The notes under the pieces: model-generated
Databases searched by the model: none
Seen by the model: only the letters and a program-made list of their open reading frames with translations
What the model was told of the DNA's origin: nothing
Position numbers and translations under genes: made by a program
In this document: positions 424 through 18,555 of the stretch, piece by piece
Layout: each line of letters starts with the position of its first letter
Position numbering within the stretch: the first letter of the stretch is position 1
NCBI GenBank assembly: GCA_019752795.1
Contig: JAIELS010000124.1
Location: forward strand, 1 to 33,776
Direction: 5' to 3'
Length of the DNA: 33,776 nucleotides
From: Sphingobacteriaceae bacterium
Lineage (GTDB): Bacteria > Bacteroidota > Bacteroidia > Sphingobacteriales > Sphingobacteriaceae

Positions 424-2358
424 TTAATTTTTAGTTGAAAATTGATAGCCTTTGCGTTTGTAAAGTTCAGAGGCCATTTGGTAATTAGCAATTGCTTCTT
501 CCGTAAGCCATTGTTCATTTTCGGTAGCAACAGAATTCCCTGTTTTAAAATCCGGAATGAAGGTGTTTGTTTTCTTATTCGGGCCTAAAATTACCAATTT
601 GTTGTTTTTTAAATAGCCAAGACTTTGGTAAGTACTGATGAAGATCCGTTGATCTTTCTCATCCATTTTAAATACATCTTGTCCAAAGAATTTACTTTTA
701 TAACTAAAGTTTAGGTAGCCTAAAATTGTAGGTCCTACATCAATTTGTGCAGTAAGTTTTTCGAATTTGCCAGGATTAATTTTTCCAGGCGCATAAAATA
801 TCATTGGAATATGGTATTTATTAACAGGGAGTTCTACTTTTCCTGCGCTAGATGCGCAATGATCTGATACAATAACAAATAGCGTATTGTTAAACCAGGG
901 TTTACTACCAGCATCTTTAATAAATTTACCTATTGCGTAATCTGTATATTTTACTGCACCCTCTCTTCCAGTATGAGATGGAATATCAATTCTTCCCTCT
1001 GGATAGGTATATGGACGATGGTTAGAAACCGTCATAATTTGGGTGAAAAATGGCTTTTTGTTTTTATAGTCTTTATCAATTTCTTTCATTGCTAACTTGA
1101 AAAGATCTTCGTCAGCTACTCCCCAAGTATTTTCATAAGTAATCTCATTTGGTTTTAAAGCATTTCTATCAGTTACTTCATAACCATTCTGCGAAAAGAA
1201 TTCGTTCATGTTGTCAAAATAGCCATAACCGCCGTAAATAAATCTACTATTATAACCTTTTGAACGAAATACGCTTCCAAGTGTAAAAAGATTTTTGTTG
1301 TCTGGACGTTTAACAATTGATTGCCCCGGTGTCGGAGGAATACAAAGTGATAGCGCTTCCAAACCTCTAACTGTACGTGTGCCAGAAGCATAAAGATTAG
1401 TAAAGAGTAATCCTTTTTTAGCTAAAGAGTCTAAATGGGGGGTGATGTTCTGCGTATTACCAAAACTTCCTAAAAAGTCTGCACTTAAGCTCTCTACACT
1501 AATCATTACTACATTCATTTTGTTCTCTTTTTCTGTAGCAATAATCTCTCTAACAGTACCTAATGCTGCGGTATCTGCGCTTTTTTCAGAGCGCTCACCA
1601 CGAAGAATACTTGTAGCTTTGTCTAGTGGTATGGTTTGATAAAAGGTATCGTAATCAAGTTGGTTATTCCAAAATGCAAATCCAAAATCATACATTCCAT
1701 TTCCGGCAAGCTCATTTGCATATTGATTGGCACTATGTTCTTTCCATTTATGGTCTACAAAAAAATAAGTGATTACCGGAATTAGCAGTAGCAGTAGTGC
1801 AAATTTTGTTCTTTTTAAAAATTTTATGGGAATACTAAAAGATGGGTTTATCCATTTTCTTAAGAAATAAGTTGCTAAACCAGAAACTAATAGTAACGTT
1901 ATTAATATAGGTGTAATTGGGTAAGATTGGCGGATATTACCAATTACTTCAGTTGTATAAATTAGATAATCTACTGCAATGAAATTGTAACGTACAGAAA
2001 ACTCATCCCAGAAAAACCATTCAGAAATTCCGTTAAAAATTAATGTTGTTACTACGATAAAGAAATATATAGTTAATAGAATAGTATTTAATTTTTTTCC
2101 ATACCACTTGCTGGGGAATACCCATAAGTAAATTACTAATGGAATAACTGCAAAAGAAGCCGCTGCTAAATCAAAAAATAGTCCGATAATAAATACGCTG
2201 AAAAAATTAGCTAATGTCCAATCGAATGAACTTGCAGAAGCGATTAACAATATTATTCTGGTTATTAATGAAATACTACACAATAACAATGTAGCTAAAA
2301 GTACAGGTCCGAATCGATGTTGAAGGATTAATCGAAAATTTTGCTGAATCTTATTCAT
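424..2358 (-). CDS. LTA synthase-like membrane sulfatase/phosphotransferase
   Basis: Member of the LtaS/alkaline-phosphatase superfamily: about five N-terminal transmembrane helices (residues ~18-205) followed by a periplasmic sulfatase-fold domain (~280-600). Visible catalytic and metal residues are E289 (SVESL), the probable nucleophile T329 (GTRTVRG, aligning with Thr300 of Staphylococcus LtaS), H447 (SNHRP) and D499/H500 (SDHCA). Length (644 aa) is normal for the family. In Gram-positives these enzymes move glycerol phosphate from phosphatidylglycerol to lipoteichoic acid. Gram-negative Bacteroidota have no lipoteichoic acid, so the acceptor is unknown; a membrane lipid or glycan is inferred. 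The gene stands alone, convergent with the PAP2 gene. Function class is firm, substrate is not. Confidence 0.88.
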   Translation of the reverse strand: MNKIQQNFRLILQHRFGPVLLATLLLCSISLITRIILLIASASSFDWTLANFFSVFIIGLFFDLAAASFAVIPLVIYLWVFPSKWYGKKLNTILLTIYFFIVVTTLIFNGISEWFFWDEFSVRYNFIAVDYLIYTTEVIGNIRQSYPITPILITLLLVSGLATYFLRKWINPSFSIPIKFLKRTKFALLLLLIPVITYFFVDHKWKEHSANQYANELAGNGMYDFGFAFWNNQLDYDTFYQTIPLDKATSILRGERSEKSADTAALGTVREIIATEKENKMNVVMISVESLSADFLGSFGNTQNITPHLDSLAKKGLLFTNLYASGTRTVRGLEALSLCIPPTPGQSIVKRPDNKNLFTLGSVFRSKGYNSRFIYGGYGYFDNMNEFFSQNGYEVTDRNALKPNEITYENTWGVADEDLFKLAMKEIDKDYKNKKPFFTQIMTVSNHRPYTYPEGRIDIPSHTGREGAVKYTDYAIGKFIKDAGSKPWFNNTLFVIVSDHCASSAGKVELPVNKYHIPMIFYAPGKINPGKFEKLTAQIDVGPTILGYLNFSYKSKFFGQDVFKMDEKDQRIFISTYQSLGYLKNNKLVILGPNKKTNTFIPDFKTGNSVATENEQWLTEEAIANYQMASELYKRKGYQFSTKN

Positions 2359-3230: not shown

Positions 3231-4433
3231 TTAATTAACCTTTTTAGTTCGCTTAATAATTTCGATACATGCTCTTCCATTGTGATAAGGACATTTCCAG
3301 AAACCAGCTTTGTCTTCGCCATTAATTAAAGTATAATCGCTATTCACACCCCAAAACCATTCTCCTTTTACCTCATTTTTAAGATGGTGTTTAATAAACG
3401 TCCAACTTTTTAAGGATTGAATTAAATATTCGTCTTTTGCATTGATTTGCCAAGCATTAAAAAAACCCACCATCGCCTCTGCTTGTGGCCACCAATGTAA
3501 TTCTTTTATCCAATGATTTGTTGTAGGATCATATTCATACCAAAGACCACCATTTTTATCAAAGCCTTTTTGGGTAGCGTCTGCCATTTGAATAGAAATT
3601 TTCCTAAAAGAAATAATTTCATCCTCATCATTTATAACTTCAGCAGCTTCTTGTAATAACCAAGCTGCCTCAATATCATGGCCAAAAGAGATTAAGGTAG
3701 ATTTGACTTGCCATGTTTCAGTGAAAAATAAGTTTAGATGATGATTTTCTTTGTTGATAATGTGATCTTTGAAGTTGGTAAGTAGCTTTTTAATAGCTAG
3801 TTTAAGTTCTTCATTATGCCAAACGCTGTATAGATTAGCATAGGCTTCTATGATATGCAAATGCGTGTTCATCGACTTTTTATCATTTTGATCTTTTTCG
3901 CTTAGACGAAGATCTTCTATAGGTTCCCAGTTTTTTGTAAGGGCTTCCGTATAGCCGAGGTTAATTGGGTCGAAACTGTGTTCTTCTAATAGGTTAAATG
4001 TATTTATTGCCAATGCTAAAGCTTTTTCATGCTTTGTTATTTTATAATATTCGGCAAAGGCATAGATGGCAAAAGCTTGACCGTATATTTGCTTTTTGCT
4101 ATCCAACATTCCGCCCATTTCATCAACAGACCAAAAAAAGCCACCATCTAAAGTGTCTGCAAAATTTTCAATTAGGTAATTAAAAGCTCGGTTAGCAGTT
4201 GTTAAATATTCATTGTTTGCATTTAAAGCATAGGCTGATGAAAAAGTGTAAAGTATTCGAGTATTTAATACAAGCCCTTTTACAGCTTCAGAACTAACGT
4301 AGTTGTCATTGTCAATTTTTCCATAAAAACCTCCGTTATCTATATCGATGGCATATGTCATCCACCAATTTAGGATGTCTTTCAATTCAGTTTCTACTTC
4401 TGATTTAAATTTATCTAATGATTTTAAACTCAT
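3231..4433 (-). CDS. Cellobiose/mannobiose 2-epimerase (AGE family)
   Basis: Cytoplasmic epimerase of the N-acylglucosamine 2-epimerase superfamily, (alpha/alpha)6 barrel, 400 aa and no signal peptide. It should convert beta-1,4-mannobiose to mannosylglucose (and cellobiose to glucosylmannose) at C2 of the reducing sugar. Family residues visible are R59 (NTRI), the NTHLH histidines (~191-193), H252 (FGHDIEAAW), paired tryptophans 314-315 (ELHWWPQAEA), W379 and H384 (FWKCPYHNGRACIE). It is the last gene of the operon, 2 nt after the GH130 stop, so it is probably translationally coupled. The pairing of GH130 with this epimerase is the signature of the Bacteroides fragilis mannan pathway and makes mannobiose the likely in vivo substrate, rather than N-acetylglucosamine. 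Confidence 0.92.
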   Translation of the reverse strand: MSLKSLDKFKSEVETELKDILNWWMTYAIDIDNGGFYGKIDNDNYVSSEAVKGLVLNTRILYTFSSAYALNANNEYLTTANRAFNYLIENFADTLDGGFFWSVDEMGGMLDSKKQIYGQAFAIYAFAEYYKITKHEKALALAINTFNLLEEHSFDPINLGYTEALTKNWEPIEDLRLSEKDQNDKKSMNTHLHIIEAYANLYSVWHNEELKLAIKKLLTNFKDHIINKENHHLNLFFTETWQVKSTLISFGHDIEAAWLLQEAAEVINDEDEIISFRKISIQMADATQKGFDKNGGLWYEYDPTTNHWIKELHWWPQAEAMVGFFNAWQINAKDEYLIQSLKSWTFIKHHLKNEVKGEWFWGVNSDYTLINGEDKAGFWKCPYHNGRACIEIIKRTKKVN

Positions 4434-4435
4434 CT

Positions 4436-5656
4436 TTATAAATGGGTAGATTCTCCTTTCAAATCTACAGTAATTGGAGCTTGAAAAAAGCCCTTATTCT
4501 TATCAATTATATCAACAATTGTTTGAACTGATGAGGCAGAACGTAAACCATCTTCAGGATTCATTGTTACATAATCAACTAGTTGCTGAATTGTACTTGT
4601 AGCTACATGCATTCTTGTGTCAGAAGATGCATAATAGATATAAACGCTTCCATCATCTTCAGCAATCCATCCGTTGCAGAATGCAACGTTTGATACATCT
4701 CCAACTCTTTCTTCATTATCTGGTGCTAAAAAATAACCTCCAGGTTTATGTATTACTTTCGTTAAATCATTCAAATCCGTCATAAACATATATAAAACAT
4801 ACCTTAAGCCTGCTGCGGTATTTCTTACGCCGTGCGCAAGGTGTAACCAACCTTTATCCGTTTTAATGGGTGCTGGGCCTTGTCCATTCTTTGCTTCATA
4901 AACAGTATGGTATACTTTTTTATCTATTACAGTTTCTTTATCAACAACTGCATTTTCTATAGATGCTGATAAGCCAAAACCAATGCCACCACCTTTGCCA
5001 GCCTCTATAAAGCTATCTTGAGGACGAGTGTAAAAAGCGTATTTTCCATTAACAAATTCTGGGTGTAAGACTACATTTCGCTGTTGAGGGGATTTTGTTT
5101 TTAAATCAGCTAATCTTTCCCAATCAATAAGATTTTTGGTTCGAGCAATACCGCATTGTGCAATAGCGGCAGATTGGTCTCCTTCTGGAGCCGATTTATC
5201 TCTTCGTTCTGTGCAAAATAGACCATAAATCCAACCATCTTCATGTTCAACTAATCTAATGTCGTAAACGTTAGTGTCTGGTTCATCAGTTTCTGGCATT
5301 ACAACAGGGTAATCCCAAAAGCGGAAATTGTCTATTCCATTTGAACTCTCGGCAATGGCGAAGAAAGATTTTCGGTCATTTCCTTCTACTCTTGCCATTA
5401 ATATGTATTTTCCTTTCCACTTAATTGCACCAGAATTTAAAACGGCATTAATACCAAATCTCTCTATTAAGAAAGGATTGGTTAATGGGTTAAGATCATA
5501 CCTCCAATTGTAAGGGATGTGAGCTGATGTTAAAACAGGGTTTTTATATCTATTGAAAATTCCATTACCTTCCTCAATCTTTTGATTAGGAGTAGTAATT
5601 AATCTTTCTTGGTTTTGTGCTAATTGTGTAATGCGTTGTTCGAAATTCGTTTTCAT
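4436..5656 (-). CDS. GH130 4-O-beta-mannosyl-glucose phosphorylase
   Basis: Cytoplasmic glycoside phosphorylase of family GH130, 406 aa, five-bladed propeller, no signal peptide. Predicted reaction: beta-1,4-mannosyl-glucose plus phosphate gives alpha-mannose-1-phosphate plus glucose (EC 2.4.1.281). The probable proton donor is D132 (NVYDIRL), matching Asp131 of the B. fragilis enzyme. Other conserved stretches are [13 protein letters not shown], the phosphate-site arginine/histidine region [11 protein letters not shown] with YTRPQD, and [10 protein letters not shown]. The neighbouring epimerase and GH26 argue for subfamily 1 (mannosylglucose) rather than the mannooligosaccharide or N-glycan core enzymes; this last point is inference from context and from overall resemblance. 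It sits 4 nt after the symporter stop and 2 nt before the epimerase start. Confidence 0.92.
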
Positions 5657-5660
5657 TGTC

Positions 5661-7487
5661 TTAATCTTCTAATCTGTTCCACCAAGTTCTTTTTAAAATA
5701 AATATGATTACCGCCAAAATGCCGATAGTTATCCATAAGGGATAAAACATACCCGTAATTAGATACATCGGGAAAACGGTGAGGCATAGCTGTGCAATAA
5801 TACCAAGTACTACATTAAACATGTCTAATTTAAAATTCTTATTGGCTTCAAAACTTGGATCTTCTGCAATGACTAAATCGTGTACAGGTTTCCAAAAACC
5901 CCAGGGTTTTACTGTTTTATAAAATGATTTCAGCACTTTTTCTTCGGTAGGAGGGGCGGTATATGTACCGATTAAGCATCCAATTATAGACAATACAAAT
6001 AGTGCTGGCCACCAATATAAAGGGAGCCCTGTAGTTACATAAGGCATTAACAAAGCTGCTCCTACGCCAACAGCCATTCCCCAAAAGAAGCCGTTTGCAT
6101 TAAAGCGCCACCAGTACCATTTTAGGCAATTCGCAGCTACATACCCTCCATATAATCCGCCAACTATCCATTGTAGAATGTCGTTTACATTATTGGCCAT
6201 AAAGCCGAAGAAAATGCCAACTATTACTACAATGATTCCAACGATGTAGTTCATTGAAATGATCTTTTTAGTAGGGGCATTTGGGTTAATGTACTTTAAA
6301 TAGATGTCGTTTACAATGTAAGCTTGAGCAGCATTTAATGTACCACTGAAAGTACCCATAAAGGCGCCAAGTAAGCCAGTTAAAACTAAACCTAATACAC
6401 CAACAGGTAGAAAATTATTAATTGTTGCTGGTAAAATACGTTCGAAATCGGTTACGCCATCAGGTCCTTTTAGGTATAATTGATTGTAATACAATAATGC
6501 CAAAACAGTTAAACCAGTAATCATGCTATAACGAATTGGCAATAAAATAATGCTTACAAAGCCAGTCATTTTACTCGCTTCTTTAGGGCTGCGTGTGCTC
6601 AAGATTTTTTGCATATCATAGTTTGGAGCAGGTCCGGCGAGAGATGCAAAAATACCTTTCATTAACATCATCATAAAGAAAATGCCAAATAAGCTGAAGC
6701 CATCGTCAGCAATTTTTTTGTTAGCATCAGCAGCTATTTTACTCCAATCTAAATTTAATTCCCAACTAAAGAAAGGGTCGTTCCATCCCTCTGGGACATT
6801 TAATTTTTGCCCATTTAAATGCTGTACCGCAATAATGCCAATAGCAACACAAGCAATTGTCATGATGGCATATTTAATCGCATCACCTAAAACAATACTA
6901 TGCATACCACCTAAAATGGAATAGAACATGGCAAATAATGTAAAAACTATTCCGTAAAAATGTGGTACATATTTGTCTGTAATGTGAAAAGGAACATAGT
7001 CTTTTACCATATCCCATGGGATGAAAACTTGAACAAATTTTCCTAAACCGACAAAGCCATAAGCTAAAAAACCTAAACAACTAATTAGTGCAAATGCAAT
7101 TACGATAATATGTGAGCTTTTAACACCTTTTCCCGTTAATCCGAATCGGGTTTTTAACCATTCGGCACCTGTTGTTGCATTAGATCTTCTTAGCCATTTG
7201 GATAGGAACATCATCATAAAAACTTGGTTAAAAACTGGCCATAACCAAGGGATCCAAATACTTTTAAAACCGTAAACAAAACAGAGTGCAACCATCCACA
7301 TGGTGCCACTAATGTCGAACATGTCGCTTGCATCACTTAAACCTAACATGTACCAAGGTAGTTTTTTGCCACCCATTAGGTAGCTGTCTTTATCTTGCTT
7401 AGCCTTGTTTCTCATGTAAAAACCTATGAGCACCATTGAGGCGAGGTAAGTAACTAAAATTAAAATATCTATTAGTTGTAGTTTCAT
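5661..7487 (-). CDS. Sodium:solute symporter (SSS family), mannobiose uptake
   Basis: Inner-membrane Na+/sugar symporter, 608 aa with about 14 hydrophobic helices and no cleavable signal peptide. The N-terminus ([20 protein letters not shown]) and the following [17 protein letters not shown] stretch are typical of SSS transporters. A hydrophilic loop near residues 230-255 ([20 protein letters not shown]) and an extra C-terminal helix pair are present. It corresponds in position and type to the sugar transporter of the B. fragilis GH26/GH130/epimerase cluster, so beta-1,4-mannobiose is the likely cargo. The flanking gaps are 1 nt to GH26 and 4 nt to GH130, so all three should be made from one mRNA. 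It brings disaccharide from periplasm to cytoplasm, where the epimerase and phosphorylase act. Confidence 0.88.
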
Positions 7488-7488
7488 G

Positions 7489-8625
7489 TTAGTTTGCGTA
7501 GTATAGTTTCTTTTTGCCTAATGTTTTTTCAAAAAGTATCTTTTTGTTTTGATAGAATTTTATAAAATCTGGTTCGGATAATTGACCTTTAAATGGTGCA
7601 TAATAATGCATTTTTTTCATTGATGGCATGTAGCCGGCGTTACGCCAAACTAACACATAGGCTAAAGGATAATCTTTTATAGCAGGCCATAAAGTTTCTG
7701 TCCACCATTTGGGTTCAGGTATAGCTTCATAACCAGTTTCGGCAAAAGCGGCTAGTTTCTTTTTTTCTCTTGCTATTTTTGTTAAAATTGATAAACTCTT
7801 TTTTACCGCATTAATAAAGGTGTTTTTATTTTGGTTCTCGAATTGGTACATATCAAAACTTACTATATCAACCATATCATCTCCGGGATATCTTTCTAAA
7901 AACTCTTTTTCATTTGCAAAATCATTAGTGTTATACACATAGATTAAGTTGTGAAGCTTTTTTTCATTACGTAAGTAGTTTACTGTAAACTGCCATGCTT
8001 TGATTAATTCTTCAGGGCTGCAAGTGTTTTTGCCCCACCAAAACCAATTGCCAGTTAATTCATGAAATGGACGAAAAAGAATAGGGATTTGTTCGCCATT
8101 ACTTCCTTTTAAGGTATACATAAAATTGGCAGCCTTGTTTAACCAAGATTTATATAATTCGTGTTTTTCTCCGCCAGGCAATATAGAGGCTACTGCATTT
8201 TTTGTGGTGTCCCAAGCAGTGCCGCCAGATAATGGATTGTCAAAATGCCAACTTAAAGTAATTACGCCACCTCTTTTATAGCCCTCTTGAATGTATTTTC
8301 TCATTTTTGCAAAAGGAACGCCATCTATATTGTTGATAGAATCTAACTCTATTCTTGCAATGTCCCACCCATAAACTGCTGGATAGTCATTAACCATATC
8401 TTTAATGTCGCTTTTGCCTTCAATATATTTCCAGTTTACACCATAAGCTAAATCGTCTTGATGCCCGAATAAGGTAAATTGGGTGCTTAATTTGTGTAGG
8501 TTTTTATAGAGAGAAATGGTCTCTTGTGTTGCTAATTTATCGCTCAAAGATTGTGCATTCGCTATTCCCATAAAGGAAAGTAAGTAAATGCAAATAATCG
8601 TTAAAACACTTTTATATATCTTCAT
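7489..8625 (-). CDS. GH26 beta-mannanase (periplasmic/secreted)
   Basis: Family GH26 beta-1,4-mannan hydrolase. The track start at 8703 would overlap the upstream phosphodiesterase gene by 65 nt; the internal ATG at 8625 gives a clean signal peptide (MKIYKSVLTI...GIANA, cleavage before QS) 13 nt after that gene, so I use it (378 aa). In this numbering the acid/base is E189 (RPFHELTGNWFWWG) and the nucleophile is E296 (FAETGYEA). WHFDNPLSGGTAW and the C-terminal VWRNAGYMPS are also typical. There is no lipobox cysteine, so the enzyme is probably periplasmic rather than surface anchored. By analogy with B. fragilis ManA it likely releases mannobiose from chain ends, but endo- versus exo-action cannot be read here. 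No accessory binding module is present. Confidence 0.93.
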   Translation of the reverse strand: MKIYKSVLTIICIYLLSFMGIANAQSLSDKLATQETISLYKNLHKLSTQFTLFGHQDDLAYGVNWKYIEGKSDIKDMVNDYPAVYGWDIARIELDSINNIDGVPFAKMRKYIQEGYKRGGVITLSWHFDNPLSGGTAWDTTKNAVASILPGGEKHELYKSWLNKAANFMYTLKGSNGEQIPILFRPFHELTGNWFWWGKNTCSPEELIKAWQFTVNYLRNEKKLHNLIYVYNTNDFANEKEFLERYPGDDMVDIVSFDMYQFENQNKNTFINAVKKSLSILTKIAREKKKLAAFAETGYEAIPEPKWWTETLWPAIKDYPLAYVLVWRNAGYMPSMKKMHYYAPFKGQLSEPDFIKFYQNKKILFEKTLGKKKLYYAN

Positions 8626-8638
8626 CAATTGAATCTGC

Positions 8639-9727
8639 TTATTTTTGTAATAAAACTTCTTTAATAGGTTTGCCGATATCATGACCGTTTTCAAACTTAA
8701 CACCTAAAAAACAAGCAATGGTTTGCGCAATTTGATTTTGATATAGAACACCTTTGGTTTTAATTTCTCCCAAAGGTTTAGTATCGGGTCCCATTACTGC
8801 AAAAAATATCTCATTAGAGTGTGCTACACTATAGTAATGGTGCTGCCAATTATCCTCATAACCTCTGCCATGATCTTCTGTAATGATAAATGTAGTTTGA
8901 TCTTTATAAAAAGGATCATTCTGCATAAATTTCCATAAGTCTTCTATCATTTTGTCGTTGTAATTGGCCGCATCGAGATAAAAATCATATTTTCCACTAT
9001 GTGCTAAAGCATCCGTCTCTATAAAACTTAACTGTAAAACTCTAGGGTGATGGAGCTTTACATATTCTTTGGCTAATGAATAGGTAATGCCATCATTTCT
9101 TTCGCCCATGCCATAATCTTTTGGCAACCACCATTGTAAATCGTTTAGTGTTTCCTGAACATCACTTAACTTTTCGCCCTGCATATTTTTAAACCCAGAA
9201 TTGATAGGAAGACCTGATCTCTTTTGATTTAAGATGTTATAAAATGCATCCCAAGAGGTAAATGTTGCAACTTTGCCTTTAAATTCTGGTTTATTATTTA
9301 AAAACTCAAGAACATTAATGTTAGGGTTTGGTCCATAATCATTTTTGTTGATTAACGTATCTGGATAACCTGTGAAGATTTCATTATAGCCCGGATAAGA
9401 AAACCAATACTTGTTGGTTACGTTTACAAAATTTCCGTAATTACGATTGCCATAAATCTGCCCATTTTTAGCTATGTTATTCCAAAAGAAGGGCATTAAC
9501 TTAGCCCTTCTTTCTGTTGTATTTTTAGCCCAGTATTTTTTTACACGCCAAATTGAATCTTGTGAAGTAAACTTCTTTCCAAAAAGATTACTGGAATCTG
9601 CGCCATTAAACATATCCTTCCACCTGTAGCCATCAAAGGTAATGATGACAACATTTTTTGTTTGTTGCGCATTAGCAACATTGAAACAAAAAAATAAGAA
9701 TAGGAGGGCTATTTTTTTAATAAGCAT
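8639..9727 (-). CDS. Secreted type I phosphodiesterase/alkaline phosphatase-family protein
   Basis: Alkaline phosphatase superfamily hydrolase of the nucleotide pyrophosphatase/phosphodiesterase type, 362 aa. A type I signal peptide (residues 1-20, NVANA before QQ) sends it to the periplasm. The two-metal site is complete: D32 (TFDGYRW), probable nucleophile S110 (YWFSYPGYNEIFTG), D239/H243 (ETDALAH), D285/H286 (TEDHGRG) and H303 (VAHSNE). Serine takes the place of the threonine found in classical ENPPs. It sits inside the mannan operon, 13 nt after the glycan-binding protein and 13 nt before GH26, so it should be expressed with them. Its substrate is unknown. A phosphate or phosphodiester group on the imported glycan is a plausible inference; a sulfatase role is less likely because the sulfatase C/SxPxR signature is missing. 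Confidence 0.85.
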   Translation of the reverse strand: MLIKKIALLFLFFCFNVANAQQTKNVVIITFDGYRWKDMFNGADSSNLFGKKFTSQDSIWRVKKYWAKNTTERRAKLMPFFWNNIAKNGQIYGNRNYGNFVNVTNKYWFSYPGYNEIFTGYPDTLINKNDYGPNPNINVLEFLNNKPEFKGKVATFTSWDAFYNILNQKRSGLPINSGFKNMQGEKLSDVQETLNDLQWWLPKDYGMGERNDGITYSLAKEYVKLHHPRVLQLSFIETDALAHSGKYDFYLDAANYNDKMIEDLWKFMQNDPFYKDQTTFIITEDHGRGYEDNWQHHYYSVAHSNEIFFAVMGPDTKPLGEIKTKGVLYQNQIAQTIACFLGVKFENGHDIGKPIKEVLLQK

Positions 9728-9740
9728 GGAAGTCTAGAAC

Positions 9741-10763
9741 TTAATAAAAGCCAACATCATCAACATAAATTTGTGAAGCAAAACCGCTAAATTCTTGAAA
9801 GGTTAAATATTCAATCGTTGCAGGACTTCCAATATTAATAAGAGGTACTTGATAATCTGTCCATTTACCTTCATTTAATATGAGTTCATACGAGCCCGCA
9901 GTAGGAGTGACTGAAATTTTAACTTTTTTACCTTGTGTGCCTACTCCGCCATACATAGAGATTTTAAGAGTTGTATACCCAGTCATATTCAATTTAGCTA
10001 CTAATCGAAACCTTAAAGCTGAAAATGCTTTATGGCTTACCATAATAGAATTAGTTCCTCTTCTTACAACTGCTGTACTATTGAATACTAAGTTTGAAGT
10101 AGAATAAGAAGTATTTGTCCAACTATTTTTAAGAGCATCATCAAAAATAACATGTTTTAAACCAAATGTTTTTGTAGCTGTTACTGTTCCTACAGGTGTA
10201 GTAACTACAACCTCACCATTAGTTACTCCAGTAGGAACTTTTGCTTTAATTTCTGTTTTTGTGTTTGATAAAATTGTAGCAGCAACGCCATTAATCTTCA
10301 CCTCTGTTACGCCTTTAAAATAAGCGCCGTAAATAGTTACTTCGTCATTTGCTCCACCAGCAGCAGGGTCAATATCGTTAATAATTGGCCCTGGCTGTGT
10401 AACCTTAAAATTTAAAGTAGCGGATCCAAATTTGGTAGTAACAGTTATCGGATTATTTATTGGGTCGACTAATTCTGCGGGTATTTTAACAGTAATACTG
10501 TTGTCATTAGCGTATACTAATGAATCTGCAGCTAATACACCATTAAAGTCGACTTTAGTTGTTGTACTTAGATTACTCCCACTAATAATAATCCATTCGC
10601 CATAACCTATTGACTGTAATGGATTATCTCTTTCAGTTAAATTGGTAACTTTAGTAAGCGTGGGGGTGTTAGTGCTTACTGTGTTATCTTTTTTACAAGC
10701 TAAACTAGCGATAGTTATCAGAATAAATAGGCTAGCATTTACGTATTTTTTGATCTTTTCCAT
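9741..10763 (-). CDS. IPT/TIG-domain surface glycan-binding lipoprotein (SGBP)
   Basis: Lipoprotein in the SusE/F position, 340 aa. The signal ends at a lipobox with C23 (ASLACKKDN). Two immunoglobulin-like IPT/TIG domains follow at about 33-115 (YGEWIIISGSNLS, VDFNG) and 118-195 (IDPAAGGANDEVTIYGAYF, VKINGVAAT). A C-terminal beta-sandwich module (~200-340) ends in IYVDDVGFY, as jelly-roll carbohydrate-binding modules often do. The Ig domains likely act as spacers and the last domain as the glycan-binding part. The gene lies 23 nt after susD and 13 nt before the phosphodiesterase gene. Surface exposure is inferred from the lipobox and locus position. The ligand is inferred to be beta-mannan from the enzymes encoded downstream; the binding residues cannot be named from sequence alone. 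Confidence 0.85.
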   Translation of the reverse strand: MEKIKKYVNASLFILITIASLACKKDNTVSTNTPTLTKVTNLTERDNPLQSIGYGEWIIISGSNLSTTTKVDFNGVLAADSLVYANDNSITVKIPAELVDPINNPITVTTKFGSATLNFKVTQPGPIINDIDPAAGGANDEVTIYGAYFKGVTEVKINGVAATILSNTKTEIKAKVPTGVTNGEVVVTTPVGTVTATKTFGLKHVIFDDALKNSWTNTSYSTSNLVFNSTAVVRRGTNSIMVSHKAFSALRFRLVAKLNMTGYTTLKISMYGGVGTQGKKVKISVTPTAGSYELILNEGKWTDYQVPLINIGSPATIEYLTFQEFSGFASQIYVDDVGFY

Positions 10764-10786: not shown

Positions 10787-12436
10787 TTACCAGCCAGGGT
10801 TATTTGTGGTTAAGGCTGTATTTGAGTTTAGTTCGTTTATTGGAATTGGTAACAAAAGATTTTTTGCAGTTCTTACCTTAGATATATTGTTTTGTCCAGA
10901 TGATATTTTATTCATTACTTGAAGATATATTCCCCAGCGCATTAAATCAAACCTCCTTACTCCTTCTAAATTAAATTCTCTAGCTCGTTCGGCTAAGACA
11001 TAACTACGGAATTGTTCTGATGTCATATTTGCAGGTGCATATGCTTCTGCAACAGGTACAGCTGGTGAGCCAGTAGTAGGGAATGAGCGAAATCTAACTG
11101 TGTTTAAAGCATTGTATGCATTGCTTGTTGGGCCATTTATTTCGTTTTCAGCTTCTGCATACATTAAATATAATTCTGAATAACGAAGTAACGGATAAAA
11201 CGCATCACTATTTGCTACAGTTGGATCTGCAACACCGCTGTATTTAATGGTGTAAGCTCTTTCTGCAGTTGTGCTACCTGTATTGTTATAGGTAATTCCA
11301 TTAACTACTTTATATTGTGCCGACTGAGATAGGGGGTAAAAGATGTAAGTTCCTTGTAATGTTTGATAGTTATGAGTAATCCCGTCAAGTACTCTTTTGT
11401 CTAATATATCGTAATCATTGTAATGGTTATTAGTTGTCCAAACTGCACCTACTCCAAACGTAGATCTGGCAGAAAAATAAACGCCTAAATTGTTAATAAA
11501 TGCACTTCCCGCTAAAGATTGCACTTCCCACATTTGTTCTTTAGAATTTCGTCCAGCTATGCTCCACAAGTCGGTCCAGTTTGGCGTAAGCTTATAGAGA
11601 TTGCTTGATATAACTTCTTGTGCCTTATCTCTTGCTAAAGTGTAATATGCTTTTGCATCTAAACCCTCTAAACCTTTTACTATATTTTTAGCGTAAGTGT
11701 AATATCCATTATCAGTGCCACCTCGAACGGTTATGTTTCCAGTTGATGCACCAGAGGCCATTGTTAAATAAGTTTTAGCTAAGAAAGATTTTGCTATACC
11801 TTGGTTTACTCTGCCAGCTTCGCCTGCCTTAGCATGTCCGACTGGTAATAAGTTTGTTTCTGCAGCTTTTAAATCTGAAATAATAACATCGTAAGTTTCT
11901 TTTACTGTTGCTCTTGGTATATTTGTTTCGGGATTATTTGCAGAAACTGAATTTAAACGAATTGGTACGCCGCCATAAAGTTGTACCAATTGAAAGTATG
12001 CCCATCCTCTTAAAAAATATGCTTCACCTAATATTCTCTTTTTTATGTCTGGATCTATTTCGGTAATATTTGGTACATTTTCTAACACGGTATTTGCTCT
12101 TGCAATAATTGTATAACAACCAATCCAAGGTCCATCTACTCCCCAGTAATTTTGAGGATTACCTGCACCGGTACTACCCAAATACCAATCTGCACCAGAC
12201 ACATGATCGTCATCTAAAACGGTTATATTCCAAAATGGTTGTATAAACAAATCATACGTGTATAGCTCTGCATATACGCCATTAATAGCTGCTCTAGCAT
12301 CGCTTTCATTTTTATAGAAATTTTCTGGAGAATAAAATGAAAATGGTTTTTCTTCTAATGCCTTTTTGCACGAGCTTGTACTTAGTAAAACTAAGCCGAT
12401 AACCGATGCTATAAAATATGTTGAAATCGCTTTCAT
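10787..12436 (-). CDS. SusD/RagB-family nutrient-binding lipoprotein
   Basis: Outer-membrane lipoprotein that forms the lid of the SusC transporter. It has 549 aa, a normal length. The signal ends at lipobox C23 (LLSTSSCKKALEE). The N-terminal SusD-like region shows YKNESDARAAINGVYAEL; TPR-like helices include EAYFLRGWAYFQLVQLYGGVPI, a segment typical of the family. The C-terminal region has YSELYLMYAEAENEING and AYVLAERAREFNLEG-type sequence (here SYVLAERAREFNLEGVRRFDLMRWG), both hallmark RagB/SusD stretches. It lies 17 nt downstream of susC. Ligand specificity for manno-oligosaccharides is inferred from the enzymes of the operon. Confidence 0.96.
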   Translation of the reverse strand: MKAISTYFIASVIGLVLLSTSSCKKALEEKPFSFYSPENFYKNESDARAAINGVYAELYTYDLFIQPFWNITVLDDDHVSGADWYLGSTGAGNPQNYWGVDGPWIGCYTIIARANTVLENVPNITEIDPDIKKRILGEAYFLRGWAYFQLVQLYGGVPIRLNSVSANNPETNIPRATVKETYDVIISDLKAAETNLLPVGHAKAGEAGRVNQGIAKSFLAKTYLTMASGASTGNITVRGGTDNGYYTYAKNIVKGLEGLDAKAYYTLARDKAQEVISSNLYKLTPNWTDLWSIAGRNSKEQMWEVQSLAGSAFINNLGVYFSARSTFGVGAVWTTNNHYNDYDILDKRVLDGITHNYQTLQGTYIFYPLSQSAQYKVVNGITYNNTGSTTAERAYTIKYSGVADPTVANSDAFYPLLRYSELYLMYAEAENEINGPTSNAYNALNTVRFRSFPTTGSPAVPVAEAYAPANMTSEQFRSYVLAERAREFNLEGVRRFDLMRWGIYLQVMNKISSGQNNISKVRTAKNLLLPIPINELNSNTALTTNNPGW

Positions 12437-12453: not shown

Positions 12454-15400
12454 TTAAAAATTGCAACGTAATGAAAAGTTATAAGTTCTGGAATTAGGAT
12501 AGCCACCTAAGTCAACACCAAAAACAGCAGGGTTATCTCCATAACTATTGATTTCAGGATCGTAACCAGAGTAATTGGTAAAAGTGAATAAGTTGTTTGC
12601 TCCCACAGCAACTCTTAAGGCAGAGATGGTTTTAGATTTTATGGGAACATTGTAGCCCAACGTTACATTTTTTATCCTTACAAAACTTCCATCCTCAATA
12701 AATCTTCTGCTAAATAAAAGATCTCTAAAGAACTGACGCATTATTTTAGGTCCAGTTGCATTACTATTGTCTTTGCCTTGTGCCCAAGCACCATCAGCCA
12801 TTTCTTGTGTAATGTTTTTATTAGTACCTAAGTTAGCGTTAAAGCGAGTATTCATGTTAATTACATCATTACCTTGTACGCCATTTATAAAAACACTTAA
12901 ATCAAATCTTTTGTACTTAAAATTGTTGGTAAATCCGAAAGTGTAATCTGGATTTACGTCTCCAATAAAAGTTCTATCACTTTGACTGATTGAGCTAGGG
13001 TCATTATCTAAATTTTTGTATTTAACTTCTCCAATGGTACGTAAAATAATAGCACTGCTTTGGTTGACGTAAACTAAATTATTTCTAACTTCTGCTTCAT
13101 TGTCATAATAACCATCTTCTACATAGCCATAAAGGGCACCTATAGATTTACCAACGGTTTGTATAAATGGAGCGTCTCCTGTAGAGATATTTCTTCCATA
13201 TTGCTCAGTTACATCAGAGCCCAAGCTTAAAATTTTATTTCTATTGAAAGATATGTTGAAATTTGAACTCCATTCAAAATCTTTTGCTTTGGCAACCACA
13301 CCATTCAATGTTACTTCGAGCCCTTTGTTTTCGATTGAGCCAGAGTTTACAAGTTTTGTTCTAAAGCCAGTTGATGAAGGAATAATTAGATTTTGTAATA
13401 AATCATCTGTAATTTTCTTGTATACTTCAACACTTAAATTAAGTCTATTCTTGAACATGCCAATATCTAAACCTAAATTGTAGGCACTAGTGGTTTCCCA
13501 TTTTAATTTTTCATTAGCTGGACCAGCATACAAATCATTAGCTAAACCAGTTTGTATCGCTCCTCCAAATACATAATTGTAAACACTTAACTTTGCTAAT
13601 GAAGCATATGATCCAATTCCTTGATTCCCTGTTTTTCCATAGCTGGCACGTAATTTCAAGTTACTAATTGGTTTTACGTTTTGCATAAAATCTTCACTAG
13701 AAATCTTCCAGGCAGCTGCTGCTGATGGAAATCCTGCCCATTTGTTGTCTTTTCCAAATTTGCTAGAGCCATCTTGACGGTATGATAGGGTTAATAAATA
13801 TCGATCATCATAGTTGTAATTCGCTCTAGCTAGGAACGAAATTAAAGTTGACTGATAACGCGAAGTAATTACGGGCATGATTACTTCACCGGCAGCTAAG
13901 TTTTCGTTCTCTAAAGCATCATTAGGGAACGTTTTGGCTTCAGCTCTTTTGCTTTGACCATTTGTGCGCTCATAAGTTGCTCCACCTAAAATATTTAAAC
14001 TATGTTTATCAATTTTTTTATTATAAGTTAAAATGCTTTCTGAAGTAATATTACTCCATATATTATCGGCCTTTAAACCCCATCCTTTCATTGCAAAACC
14101 TTCATAAACAGTTCTTGGGTAATATTGGTCTCTTGCACTGTTAGAATAATTAAAACCAACATTTTGTCTGAATTTGAAATCTTTTAAAAAAGTTGCTTCA
14201 GCATAATTGGAAGAGAAAATATTTAAGCCCTTAACGGTGTTCATCGCATCGTTTACATAAACGTAAGGGTTTGTGATAAAGGCATCACCCACACCATCAT
14301 ATGCTATTGGATCTGAAATAGTTGATGGAAAAGTAAGTGCAGAACGAATAACTCCAGCGCTTGCCGCATCTGATTTATCAGTTCCTGTTTTTACACCGTT
14401 AGTAAGTGTGCTGGCTAAAGAAGTGCTTGTGCCTACTTTAAAAGTTTTACTAATATTTCTGTTTAAATTTAAACCTAAACCAAATCTATTATATTTAGAA
14501 TTAATGACAGTGCCCTCTTGATCTAAATAATTAAAAGTAATACTGTGTGTGCCAAGATCTGTTCCTCCTGATATATTTACAGAATAATTTTGATATAATC
14601 CGCTTCGAAATATTCTGTCTTGCCAATCGTTGTTGTTTCCAACATAATCTTGGGGTCCTTTATCGTAATAAGTTTGACCAGGATTATTTGGATCAGGAAG
14701 ATTGGTGCCAGAATAAGGAACATTATAGTTTGTTCCAGTGTATTTATTCGAATTAAGGTAGGCTAAATTTTGATAACTAGCATATTCTGCTGGATTTAAC
14801 ACATCTAGCGTTCTAGAGACTTGCGCCATTCCTGCACTAAAATTCCCTTCAATTTTGTCTTTTCCACTTTTACCTTTTTTTGTAGTGATTAATACTACTC
14901 CATTCGCTCCCCTCGACCCATAAATTGCAGTGGCTGAAGCATCTTTTAAAATATCAATGGTTTCAATATCATTAGGGTTAATAAACGACATAGCATTTAA
15001 TGTCTGTTTTTCATCTTCGCCAATAGACATAGGTGTGCCTCCACTACTTGAATTATTATATGGAATTCCATCGATTACATATAATGGTTCTGTTCCTCCT
15101 AAAAATGAATTAGAGCCTCTAATTCTGATGCTTAATCCAGCTCCTGGAGCGCCATCATTTTGAGTGACGTTTACGCCAGCAATTTTCCCTTGCAAGGCTT
15201 GCAGAATGTTGGTTGGAACGTCTCTAACAAAATCTTCATTCTCAATTCTAGCAACAGAGCCCGTGAGGTCAGATTTTTTTATAGATCCATACCCAATAAT
15301 AATTACATCAGAAAGTGATGTGCTTTTGGACAAAAGTTTAATGTTGAATGAAGTCTTGTTGCCAATGACAAGTTCTTGGTCTTGCATTCCCAAATAAGAA

Positions 15401-15627
15401 AAAACAATAGTTTGGCTAGTTGCTGGTGCACTAATGGCAAAGTTTCCATTTTCATCTGTAACGGCAACTACATTTGTGTTCTTAATTTTAACGGAGGCTC
15501 CTGGAAGGGATAATCCTGATTCATCAGTAACTTTTCCAGTAATTCTTTTATCCTGTGCAAAAACAGTAGTAACTGATAGTAGGCATACAAGAAGCGCCAA
15601 TAAATTAGTGAATAGTTTATTAAGCAT
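12454..15627 (-). CDS. SusC/RagA-family TonB-dependent glycan transporter
   Basis: Outer-membrane beta-barrel importer, 1057 aa. A signal peptide (cleavage after VFA, before QDK) is followed by a carboxypeptidase-like regulatory domain (~28-105, ITGKVTDESGLSLPGASVKIKNT), a TonB-box-like segment (VIIIGYGSIKKSDLTGSV), the plug domain (~115-235, with the SusC signature DPNDIETIDILKDASATAIYG-like sequence) and a 22-strand barrel ending in aromatic residues (YNFSLRCNF). There is no N-terminal STN domain, so it should not signal through an anti-sigma factor; this agrees with an AraC regulator controlling the locus. It is the first gene of the eight-gene operon and pairs with SusD. Imported ligands are probably linear or acetylated manno-oligosaccharides. 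Confidence 0.96.
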   Translation of the reverse strand: MLNKLFTNLLALLVCLLSVTTVFAQDKRITGKVTDESGLSLPGASVKIKNTNVVAVTDENGNFAISAPATSQTIVFSYLGMQDQELVIGNKTSFNIKLLSKSTSLSDVIIIGYGSIKKSDLTGSVARIENEDFVRDVPTNILQALQGKIAGVNVTQNDGAPGAGLSIRIRGSNSFLGGTEPLYVIDGIPYNNSSSGGTPMSIGEDEKQTLNAMSFINPNDIETIDILKDASATAIYGSRGANGVVLITTKKGKSGKDKIEGNFSAGMAQVSRTLDVLNPAEYASYQNLAYLNSNKYTGTNYNVPYSGTNLPDPNNPGQTYYDKGPQDYVGNNNDWQDRIFRSGLYQNYSVNISGGTDLGTHSITFNYLDQEGTVINSKYNRFGLGLNLNRNISKTFKVGTSTSLASTLTNGVKTGTDKSDAASAGVIRSALTFPSTISDPIAYDGVGDAFITNPYVYVNDAMNTVKGLNIFSSNYAEATFLKDFKFRQNVGFNYSNSARDQYYPRTVYEGFAMKGWGLKADNIWSNITSESILTYNKKIDKHSLNILGGATYERTNGQSKRAEAKTFPNDALENENLAAGEVIMPVITSRYQSTLISFLARANYNYDDRYLLTLSYRQDGSSKFGKDNKWAGFPSAAAAWKISSEDFMQNVKPISNLKLRASYGKTGNQGIGSYASLAKLSVYNYVFGGAIQTGLANDLYAGPANEKLKWETTSAYNLGLDIGMFKNRLNLSVEVYKKITDDLLQNLIIPSSTGFRTKLVNSGSIENKGLEVTLNGVVAKAKDFEWSSNFNISFNRNKILSLGSDVTEQYGRNISTGDAPFIQTVGKSIGALYGYVEDGYYDNEAEVRNNLVYVNQSSAIILRTIGEVKYKNLDNDPSSISQSDRTFIGDVNPDYTFGFTNNFKYKRFDLSVFINGVQGNDVINMNTRFNANLGTNKNITQEMADGAWAQGKDNSNATGPKIMRQFFRDLLFSRRFIEDGSFVRIKNVTLGYNVPIKSKTISALRVAVGANNLFTFTNYSGYDPEINSYGDNPAVFGVDLGGYPNSRTYNFSLRCNF

Positions 15628-15850: not shown

Positions 15851-16729
15851 GTGATACATTCAAATATAATAAAAGAAATTACACCACTTACAAACAGTGA
15901 TTGTTTTACAATTTTCGAAAGAAAAAAGAAAGAATTTGACTTTCCATTACATTACCACGAGGAAATGGAATTGAACTTTATTTCTAATGCAAGTGGTGCA
16001 AGAAGGGTAGTTGGTGATCATATCGAAGAAATCGGTGATGCCGAATTGGTTTTAATTGGTGCTAATTTGCCTCACGTATGGGAAACGCATAAATTGAAAG
16101 GTAAAGAAATTCATGAAGTAACTATACAATTCCACAAAGACTTGTTTGATGAAAAGCTTTTGAGACGTAATCAGCTTCGTGTAATTAGAGAAATGTTTGA
16201 AAAATCTAAATGTGGTATCTTGTTTTCTAAAGAAACAACGGCTGTTGTTGGTTCTCGATTAGTACAATTGAATAAAAAGCATGGATTTGATTCTGTTTTA
16301 GAATTAATGTCTATTCTTCATGATTTATCAACATCTAGAAATATGCGAACGCTATCAGATTCTACCTTTAGCAATGCAGAGTTCTCTTATAATAGTCGAA
16401 GAGTAGAAAAGGTAATGGAGTACATCAATATAAATTTCGATAAACAAGTTAGTTTGGCAGAAGTGGCCAGAATTGCAAGTATGACCGAAGTTTCGTTTAG
16501 TAGATTTTTTAAAAGTAGAACAGGAATTAGTTTTATTGATAGTCTAATAGAAATCAGACTAGGGCATGCATCTAGAAAGTTGATAGATACTACAGAAGCA
16601 GTAGCAGAGGTTGCTTATAATTGTGGATTTAACAATATTTCGAATTTTAATAGAATTTTTAAAAAGAAAAAGGGTTGCACCCCAAAAGAATTTAGAGAGA
16701 ATTTATCAGGTAATAGAATTTTTGTGTAA
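15851..16729 (+). CDS. AraC-family transcriptional regulator of the mannan locus
   Basis: One-component regulator with an N-terminal cupin sensor domain (HYHEEMELNFI) and a C-terminal AraC DNA-binding domain with two helix-turn-helix units (SLAEVARIASMTEVSFSRFFKSR and AVAEVAYNCGFNNISNFNRIFKK). The track uses a TTG at 15809, which adds an aromatic tail and overlaps the direct repeats and the predicted transcription start. No ATG precedes the cupin, so the GTG at 15851 (MIHSNIIKEITPL, 292 aa) is preferred. The gene is divergent from susC and 4 nt upstream of the CE2 gene. It probably senses a cytoplasmic sugar of the pathway and controls both arms; which ligand is not visible. Confidence 0.9.
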   Translation: MIHSNIIKEITPLTNSDCFTIFERKKKEFDFPLHYHEEMELNFISNASGARRVVGDHIEEIGDAELVLIGANLPHVWETHKLKGKEIHEVTIQFHKDLFDEKLLRRNQLRVIREMFEKSKCGILFSKETTAVVGSRLVQLNKKHGFDSVLELMSILHDLSTSRNMRTLSDSTFSNAEFSYNSRRVEKVMEYININFDKQVSLAEVARIASMTEVSFSRFFKSRTGISFIDSLIEIRLGHASRKLIDTTEAVAEVAYNCGFNNISNFNRIFKKKKGCTPKEFRENLSGNRIFV

Positions 16730-16733
16730 AACG

Positions 16734-17798
16734 ATGAAACGTATATTTTTAGTTTACATATTTATGGTTTTGGTTTTAAATTTAAAAGCTGACGAAATTG
16801 GCAGTTTTTACAAAGGAAATCACAGTTTTATTCAATATACTGGTAGAATTGATTTTTCTAATACAACTAAACCTAAATTATGGGCATCTGGGGCATATGT
16901 TGAAATTAAATTTAGTGGCACATTTTGTATTTTAGAAATTAATGATGAACTGTTATGGAACAAAATTCATAATTATATCGAAATTAAAATAGACAATCAG
17001 GAGCCCTATCGAATACAGCTTCAAGCGAAAGAAAATAAGATCACTTTGGCACAAAATCTGCCAAAAGCAGAACATACGGTTCTTATTTGTAAAAACACTG
17101 AGTTCGAAAATGGATATATAGAGATAGTTGGTTTTAAGGTAGAAAAATTATTAAAACCAAAAGTCAAACAAAAAAGGAAAATAGAATTTATTGGCGATTC
17201 GATTACATGCGGAGCCGCAAGTGATGAAAGTGATGTTAAGTGTGGTGTTGGAGAGTGGCATGACCAGCATAATGCTTATTTGGCTTATGGACCAACTACA
17301 GCAAGGAATTTAAATGCCCAGTGGCACCTGTCTGCTGTTTCTGGAATTGGATTAATGAAAAGTTGCTGTAATAAACCGATAATAATGCCACAGGTTTTTG
17401 ATAAAGTAAATATGGCAAGAGATTCGATAAAATGGAATTTTGATTTGTACCAACCAGATGTTTTAACCGTTTGCTTAGGACAAAATGATGGATTACAAGA
17501 CTCAGCCCAATTTACTAATGCATACCTTGTTTTTGCTAAAACTTTAAGACAGTATTATCCGAATACAAAGCTGGTTTTTTTATCAAGTCCAATGGCAGAT
17601 AAAACTTTAAAAACTGCATTAGTAAAGTATATTACAGCTGTTGAAAAACAATTGAAAGCAGATGGAGATATCAATGTCGGAACATATTTTTTTGCTAAAC
17701 AATATAACGAAGGTTGCGGCGGCCATCCCTCCATTAAAGAACATCAAGAAATTGGATTAGAGCTTACAGCATACCTCAAAAAAACAATGAATTGGTAA
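16734..17798 (+). CDS. CE2-like acetylesterase (jelly-roll + SGNH), mannan deacetylase
   Basis: Carbohydrate esterase resembling family CE2. The track ORF begins inside araC; the ATG at 16734 gives a signal peptide (MKRIFLVYIF...LNLKA, before DE) 4 nt after the araC stop (354 aa). Residues ~25-140 form the beta-sandwich domain and ~148-354 the SGNH hydrolase domain. The catalytic serine is S156 (FIGDSITCG), N251 lies in GQNDG, and the histidine is H331 (GGHPSIKEH). CE2 enzymes remove O-acetyl groups from mannan and glucomannan, which suits the locus and would open acetylated chains to GH26. Location is probably periplasmic because no lipobox is seen. Co-transcription with the regulator is implied by the 4-nt gap. 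Confidence 0.85.
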   Translation: MKRIFLVYIFMVLVLNLKADEIGSFYKGNHSFIQYTGRIDFSNTTKPKLWASGAYVEIKFSGTFCILEINDELLWNKIHNYIEIKIDNQEPYRIQLQAKENKITLAQNLPKAEHTVLICKNTEFENGYIEIVGFKVEKLLKPKVKQKRKIEFIGDSITCGAASDESDVKCGVGEWHDQHNAYLAYGPTTARNLNAQWHLSAVSGIGLMKSCCNKPIIMPQVFDKVNMARDSIKWNFDLYQPDVLTVCLGQNDGLQDSAQFTNAYLVFAKTLRQYYPNTKLVFLSSPMADKTLKTALVKYITAVEKQLKADGDINVGTYFFAKQYNEGCGGHPSIKEHQEIGLELTAYLKKTMNW

Positions 17799-17904
17799 TT
17801 TGAATAGCAGTAATTCAAGTTTGATGCTAATTATTACTTTGCGCAAAATTGAAATTGCTTTTATTCAGAACATAAAAATTTGAAAACACTAATAATTTTA
17901 ATTT

Positions 17905-18555
17905 ATGAAAACATTAAAACTGATCACCTTACTTTTACTTGTTAATTTTGTTTTAAGAGCACAAGAAAAGCCAGCTTTTTACAATGAAATTCAATATTTT
18001 AAAAAGCAAGATAGCCTTCAATTTCCTCCAAAAAATGCTGTTTTGTTTATAGGTAGTTCAACTTTTACCAATTGGAAAGATGTACAGACTTATTTCCCGA
18101 AGCATGTAATTGTTAACAGAGGTTTTGGTGGTTCTTCATTACCGAATGTAATTAATTATGTAGGTGATATTGTTTATCCTTATCATCCTAAGCAAGTGGT
18201 TATATATTGTGGGGAGAATGATTTTACTGGTAATGCGACTCCGCAAATGGTATTAGAAAGAGTGAAAAAATTAATAGATACCATTAGATTTAAATATCCC
18301 AAAGTACCAATTGCATTTATTTCGATTAAGCCAAGTCCTTCTAGAGAAAAATATATTCCTCAAATGAAGGAGGCAAACCAAATGATTGCGGATATGCTTA
18401 AAGGGGTAAAACGTACAAATTTTATTAATACTGCAGACGCCATGTACACAGCAGACGGAAAGATAATGACAGACATATTCTTGAAAGACAATCTACATAT
18501 GAATGCCAAAGGTTATCGAATATGGCAAAAAATAATGGAGCCTTATTTAAGATAA
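17905..18555 (+). CDS. Secreted SGNH/GDSL-family hydrolase, probable acetylesterase
   Basis: A 216-aa secreted SGNH hydrolase; the signal is MKTLKLITLLLLVNFVLRA before QEK. The four blocks are visible: S51 (FIGSSTF), G75 (RGFGGSS), N105 (GENDF) and the D195/H198 pair (DNLHMNAKGY). It lacks the N-terminal jelly-roll of the preceding CE2-like protein and is closer to the platelet-activating-factor acetylhydrolase-like esterases. The gap to the CE2 gene is 106 nt, so it may share that transcript or have its own promoter. A deacetylase acting on a different O-acetyl position of mannan is the favoured role by context, not by direct evidence. A terminator follows. Confidence 0.8.
   Translation: MKTLKLITLLLLVNFVLRAQEKPAFYNEIQYFKKQDSLQFPPKNAVLFIGSSTFTNWKDVQTYFPKHVIVNRGFGGSSLPNVINYVGDIVYPYHPKQVVIYCGENDFTGNATPQMVLERVKKLIDTIRFKYPKVPIAFISIKPSPSREKYIPQMKEANQMIADMLKGVKRTNFINTADAMYTADGKIMTDIFLKDNLHMNAKGYRIWQKIMEPYLR

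Follow-up and report, generated by a model that had tools for sequence, protein, structure and literature searches.

Why should a gene for a putative phosphodiesterase lie in the middle of an operon for mannan degradation? The question is raised by a contig from a soil bacterium of the Sphingobacteriaceae (assembly GCA_019752795.1, JAIELS010000124.1), which we analysed over a stretch of 33,776 nucleotides (hereafter, the window). A first-pass annotation had singled out this gene, here termed PDE, and had proposed that the natural glycan carries a phosphate or phosphodiester group that must be removed, or that phosphate scavenging is coupled to mannan use. As detailed below, the evidence from the PDE family strengthens the phosphorus-ester reading, whereas gene losses weaken the idea of necessity; substrate and activity are predictions from sequence.

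A putative phosphodiesterase gene within a β-mannan operon

The operon reads, in order, SusC, SusD, TIG lipoprotein, PDE, GH26, SSS, GH130 and epimerase. By increasing coordinate, these genes and two syntenic neighbours are:

3231..4433, minus strand: cellobiose/mannobiose 2-epimerase (PF07221; 3wkf, a cellobiose 2-epimerase, E=3e-98)
4436..5656, minus strand: GH130 4-O-β-D-mannosyl-D-glucose phosphorylase (PF04041; 3was, E=1.4e-176)
5661..7487, minus strand: SSS sodium:solute symporter (PF00474)
7489..8625, minus strand: GH26 β-mannanase, with its own ATG at 8625 (PF02156, 160.6 bits; 4zxo, E=5.5e-101)
8639..9727, minus strand: PDE, alkaline phosphatase (AP)-superfamily phospho(no)diesterase-like protein, 362 aa, ATG start
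9741..10763, minus strand: TIG-domain lipoprotein, putative surface glycan-binding protein (PF01833)
10787..12436, minus strand: SusD-like lipoprotein (PF07980, PF14322)
12454..15627, minus strand: SusC-like TonB-dependent transporter (PF07715, PF00593)
15965..16729, plus strand: divergent AraC-family regulator, conserved with the operon (PF12833; synteny)
16734..17798, plus strand: CE2-type acetyl/glucomannan deacetylase-like esterase, syntenic with the operon (PF17996; NF042969 below cut-off)

PDE is separated by 13 nt from each neighbour (the GH26 ATG ends at 8625, the stop of the TIG lipoprotein ORF being at 9741). All the elements of a β-1,4-mannan utilization locus are present, namely GH26, a GH130 mannosylglucose phosphorylase, a 2-epimerase, a transporter and SusC/D. 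The nearest solved relatives of GH26 (the GH26 structure 4zxo; also CjMan26C), GH130 and the epimerase agree with the partner genes as first annotated and confirm the predicted β-1,4-mannan route. Moreover, the syntenic CE2-type esterase and AraC regulator point to an acetylated (gluco)mannan as the likely substrate, as does the pairing of the CE2-type esterase with a GDSL esterase beside the regulator (16734-18555, plus strand).

The window also encodes a classical NPP-type phosphodiesterase that is separate from this operon (20132-21403, plus strand; PF01663, 275 bits), and a large sulfatase/LTA-synthase-like protein (424-2358, minus strand; PF00884).

PDE belongs to the alkaline phosphatase superfamily

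The following features were assigned in PDE, the signal peptide by reading the translation:

9665..9727, minus strand: predicted signal peptide, residues 1-21 (MLIKKIALLFLFFCFNVANAQ), no lipobox Cys
9632..9634, minus strand: D32, predicted metal ligand, invariant
9398..9400, minus strand: S110, predicted nucleophile (S-Y-P-G-Y-N-E-I-F-T-G), placed via the NPP T-F-P-N-H motif, invariant
8999..9013, minus strand: D239 and H243, predicted metal ligands, invariant
8870..8875, minus strand: D285-H286 (DHGRG), predicted metal ligands, invariant
8837..8839, minus strand: H297, predicted metal ligand, invariant

Because the N-terminus resembles a signal peptide and lacks a lipobox, PDE is probably a periplasmic or secreted enzyme. 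Pfam scores of the window protein were sub-threshold (PF01676, 22.5 against a cut-off of 24.3; PF01663, 18.2 against 23); in a diverse alignment of the family, PF01676 was matched by 26/26 and PF01663 by 23/26 members. A direct phmmer search of the PDB with PDE gave no match, but the family profile did, identifying a Xanthomonas NPP as the nearest solved relative (E=5.9e-5). An AF2 model built from seven sequences was of moderate quality (pLDDT 64.1, pTM 0.72), and its top Foldseek matches were all AP-superfamily folds (probability 1.00, TM about 0.4-0.5). The class, AP superfamily, is safe, but the model is too weak to assign a subfamily. Across 43/43 homologues there is no variation at D32, S110, D239, H243, D285, H286 or H297, nor at Q21; with roles assigned by motif, the first seven residues appear to fit a two-metal ligand set with a Ser/Thr nucleophile. 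Coordinates, profile and fold matches and these invariant residues bear out the original description of an AP-superfamily ORF between the TIG lipoprotein and GH26 with 13-nt gaps.

PDE stands apart from the characterised families around it. NPP-type phosphodiesterases (PF01663; Xanthomonas NPP, 2gsn/7mw8) have in common with it the superfamily and a profile-aligned D..DxxxH..DH ligand pattern; however, PDE scores below the family cut-off, its nucleophile is Ser and not Thr, and the insert before the third His is apparently missing (H297 is only 11 residues past H286). Its C-terminal half weakly resembles the PF01676 metalloenzymes, including cofactor-independent phosphoglycerate mutase, with which it also has the Ser nucleophile in common, but PDE is exported, lacks a phosphotransferase domain and, besides missing the PF01676 cut-off, scores far below that of TIGR01307 (19.4 against 330.65).

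Position 114 (9386-9388), beside the nucleophile, varies within the family. It is mostly Tyr, as in all mannan-operon copies, and is Arg in 12/43 homologues (L040, L044-L053, L063), which mostly adjoin metallophosphoesterases and none of which is a mannan-operon copy. This position may be a specificity switch.

PDE is a conserved but optional module of the operon

All of the closest homologues of PDE (76-83% identity) are found at this position of this operon. Counting the window, the gene is kept in 7/10 orthologous operons; the other six bearers are L031/L071 (Pedobacter boryungensis), L032/L072 (Nubsella zeaxanthinifaciens), L033/L073 (P. ureilyticus), L034, L035/L075 and L074. By ORF coordinates, relatives mostly have flanking gaps of 10-14 nt, and in L034 the PDE stop is 2 nt from GH26. 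Identity among the operon copies is 76-91%, above that of GH26, TIG lipoprotein and epimerase, and dN/dS was 0.035-0.063 in the four pairs with computable dS. PDE in mannan operons is under strong purifying selection.

The gene was nevertheless lost in some relatives. In two close relatives (L078, L079) the TIG lipoprotein gene is directly followed by GH26, PDE being cleanly absent, and L077 holds a decayed remnant between the same two genes (10044-10330), with the start and middle gone and an in-frame stop. The annotation had held that absence from this locus in close relatives would speak against its reading, and such absence is thus found in part; likewise, the conserved position that it had claimed is true of most operons but not of all. 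In a core-gene tree, and likewise in outgroup trees built for SSS and GH130, L078/L079 form the sister of the gene-bearing L032/L033/L035, and the mannan-operon copies of PDE are monophyletic. One ancestral presence followed by two losses is therefore the simplest account, and independent gain in several operons was rejected on the same two grounds; a late gain is possible, the rooting being only moderately supported.

The L077 operon belongs to a different genus (genome G118), and is as near to that of the window as are the operons of congeners (SusD 90%, SSS 92%), which suggests that the operon was transferred horizontally.

Kept in seven operons, decayed in one and absent from two, PDE is an optional module of the mannan operon. 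It follows that mannan use does not generally require the gene, and that a group that "must be removed" was too strong a claim. Moreover, a GH130 homologue (E<=1e-60) is present in 133/301 genomes of the bacterial family, so most β-mannan loci of such kind lack a PDE gene.

PDE homologues elsewhere often lie near phosphonate or phosphoesterase genes

PDE-family members were found in 53/396 genomes sampled across the phylum, and those outside mannan operons are 40-61% identical. We counted marker genes up to eight genes away at 73 such homologue loci and, with shared seeds and thresholds, at 20 control GH130 loci. A C-P catabolism marker was near the PDE homologue in 21/73 loci and another phosphoesterase in 25/73, each against 0/20 controls. 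Either type was present in 42/73 loci compared with 0/20, which is to be read as an enrichment and not as a formal test, since the seeds were drawn from the same neighbourhoods and the loci are related by descent. Several neighbours scored above NCBIfam cut-offs: TIGR03250 phosphonoacetaldehyde dehydrogenase and TIGR02335 phosphonoacetate hydrolase in L038, TIGR03250 and TIGR03364 in L063, and TIGR03351 PhnX-like in L116 and L117; the Phn-HD of L058 fell slightly short (213.9 against 214.6). This clustering supports phosphorus-ester chemistry, which, together with the operon membership conserved in seven orthologous loci, is the part of the original claim that stood. The gene context gives no hint of a role restricted to nucleotides.

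A recurrent arrangement consists of an XRE-like regulator, Phn-HD, SusC, SusD and PDE, with PhnX-like and MFS genes; the latter we take to be DUF5690, no NCBIfam model matching the MFS protein. Phosphonate-catabolism loci with a PDE-family member (L055, L057-L059, L061, L062, L065, L067, L068, L099, L102, L104, L105, L107-L109, L116, L117, L127) are spread over Bacteroidota. Most of them hold SusC/D, and Phn-HD, PhnX-like, HpnW and DUF5690-like genes are often present as well. They possibly constitute an undescribed uptake system for aminophosphonate esters.

The sister homologues nearest to the mannan copy are found mainly in glycan loci: L036 with sulfatase/DUF2264/GH88, L037 with GH43/GH2/sulfatase/FGE and L039 with GH2/GH92, while L038 adjoins the phosphonoacetate hydrolase. 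Near the mannan copy itself there are no linked C-P cleavage genes. Moreover, Phn-HD, HpnW, PhnX-like, PhnA, PhnJ and phosphonoacetaldehyde dehydrogenase were all missing from the mannan-copy genomes (5/6 near-complete; the window's own 83% complete), and a phosphonate product would thus not be broken down there by known routes. A direct phosphonate-feeding role of the mannan copy was set aside on this ground; probably, it serves to unmask carbon or has phosphate diesters as its substrates.

A proposed role in unmasking mannan oligosaccharides

We propose, with about even confidence, that PDE is a phospho(no)diesterase recruited into the mannan operon, where it would unmask mannan oligosaccharides with phosphodiester or aminophosphonate substituents for GH26. 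It would be a periplasmic, two-metal AP-superfamily enzyme that uses Ser as its nucleophile. The Bacteroidota family to which it belongs is uncharacterised and probably served ancestrally in phospho-/phosphono-diester hydrolysis at SusC/D-dependent uptake loci; a glycan-locus branch of this family would then have been recruited into one Pedobacter-type β-1,4-(gluco)mannan operon. SusC/D, with the TIG lipoprotein, would import mannan oligosaccharides, from which PDE most likely strips, in the periplasm, phosphodiester-linked substituents that would block GH26. Cleavage by GH26, uptake by SSS, epimerisation and GH130 phosphorolysis would follow. Candidate substituents on mannose are phosphoethanolamine and 2-aminoethylphosphonate. 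Penicillium N-glycans are reported to bear phosphoethanolamine on their mannose, and oligomannosidic glycans of Euglena to bear aminoethylphosphonate; both groups can be cleaved from glycans with hydrofluoric acid (PMC6994554). Such substrates thus exist, though on no known β-mannan: our literature search found no phosphodiester-substituted β-1,4-mannan, the known examples being N-glycans and glycolipids instead of hemicelluloses. Also against the proposal are the gene losses, the missing C-P pathways of the mannan-copy genomes, and the absence of a second phosphatase from the mannan operon.

Phosphate scavenging coupled to mannan use, the second option of the first-pass annotation, is possible, if doubtful. 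PDE would free phosphate or phosphonate headgroups from organophosphorus compounds entering with the glycan, and would be in the operon only through co-induction on plant or fungal debris. The occurrence of homologues alongside phosphonate and phosphoesterase genes in SusC/D loci is consistent with this, as are comparable phosphate-utilisation SusCD systems in F. johnsoniae (PMC8115612). However, the operon holds no P-regulon gene, phosphate transporter, phosphomonoesterase or phosphonate gene, the mannan-copy genomes lack phosphonate pathways, and in seven operons PDE is tightly flanked by the TIG lipoprotein gene and GH26.

Less probable still is that PDE is a glycan-directed phosphomonoesterase, similar to a mannose-6-phosphate phosphatase. 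The PDE pattern, a Ser nucleophile with D/D/H/D/H/H ligands, is also compatible with phosphomonoesterases such as E. coli AP, and on sequence alone either a mono- or a diesterase would fit; but the profile similarity is to NPP diesterases, and the neighbours of the homologues are diesterases or phosphonate enzymes. It is hard to believe that PDE is a passenger gene with no part in mannan use: on the simplest tree reading it was lost at least twice in the ten orthologous operons, yet its constrained sequence, conserved slot and congruent phylogeny in seven of them argue against retention by chance. The slightest chance falls to a sulfatase-like enzyme taking sulfate off the glycan, for although PF00884 was weakly matched by 18/26 family members, sister homologues adjoin sulfatases and PLSDB labels homologues sulfatase-like, PDE has S-Y-P-G-Y where S1 sulfatases have the C/S-x-P-x-R formylglycine motif (no mannan-operon copy has the Arg), and its three invariant histidines set its ligands apart from those of Ca-dependent S1 sulfatases.

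The proposed unmasking role suggests that natural plant mannan sometimes carries phosphorus-containing groups that PDE would clip off, while close relatives evidently manage without the gene. If true, the mannans met by soil Bacteroidota would have phosphorus-ester decorations that have been overlooked, a concrete role heading phosphonate and phosphodiester-glycan breakdown would fall to a large enzyme family so far uncharacterised, and PDE would be a tool enzyme for glycans bearing aminoethylphosphonate or phosphoethanolamine. More speculatively, and in our opinion rather improbably, the whole family might supply the first, extracytoplasmic step that is missing from the use of aminophosphonate/phosphodiester glycoconjugates by Bacteroidota, stripping 2-aminoethylphosphonate or phosphoethanolamine from glycans; the mannan copy would then reveal such decorations on natural β-mannans or mannose-rich oligosaccharides.

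Comparison with known systems

A mannan locus coping with phosphorylated mannan has reportedly been described in the yeast α-mannan utilisation loci of Bacteroides (Cuskin 2015), which are said to differ from the window operon in their substrate, α-mannan, and in their enzyme set. Our literature search found no source describing a phosphodiesterase in a β-mannan locus, and the words phosphatase, phosphodiesterase and sulfatase are all missing from the diatom β-mannan PUL paper. Flavobacterium johnsoniae has comparable phosphate utilisation SusCD systems (PUS), in which SusC/D are associated with phosphodiesterases and, in some clusters, with phosphonate-degrading enzymes (PMC8115612). PUS are phosphate-regulated and contain no CAZymes, and the phosphodiesterases listed for PUS I are PF00149/PF16670, other than the PDE family (PMC8115612); the mannan operon, with its CAZymes, is thus not of this type. 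It is close to the Bacteroides fragilis-type β-mannan pathway, of which GH26, SSS, GH130 mannosylglucose phosphorylase and 2-epimerase are all present here, in order. To this pathway the window operon adds linked SusC/D and CE2 esterase genes and, between the TIG lipoprotein and GH26, the AP-superfamily PDE-like gene.
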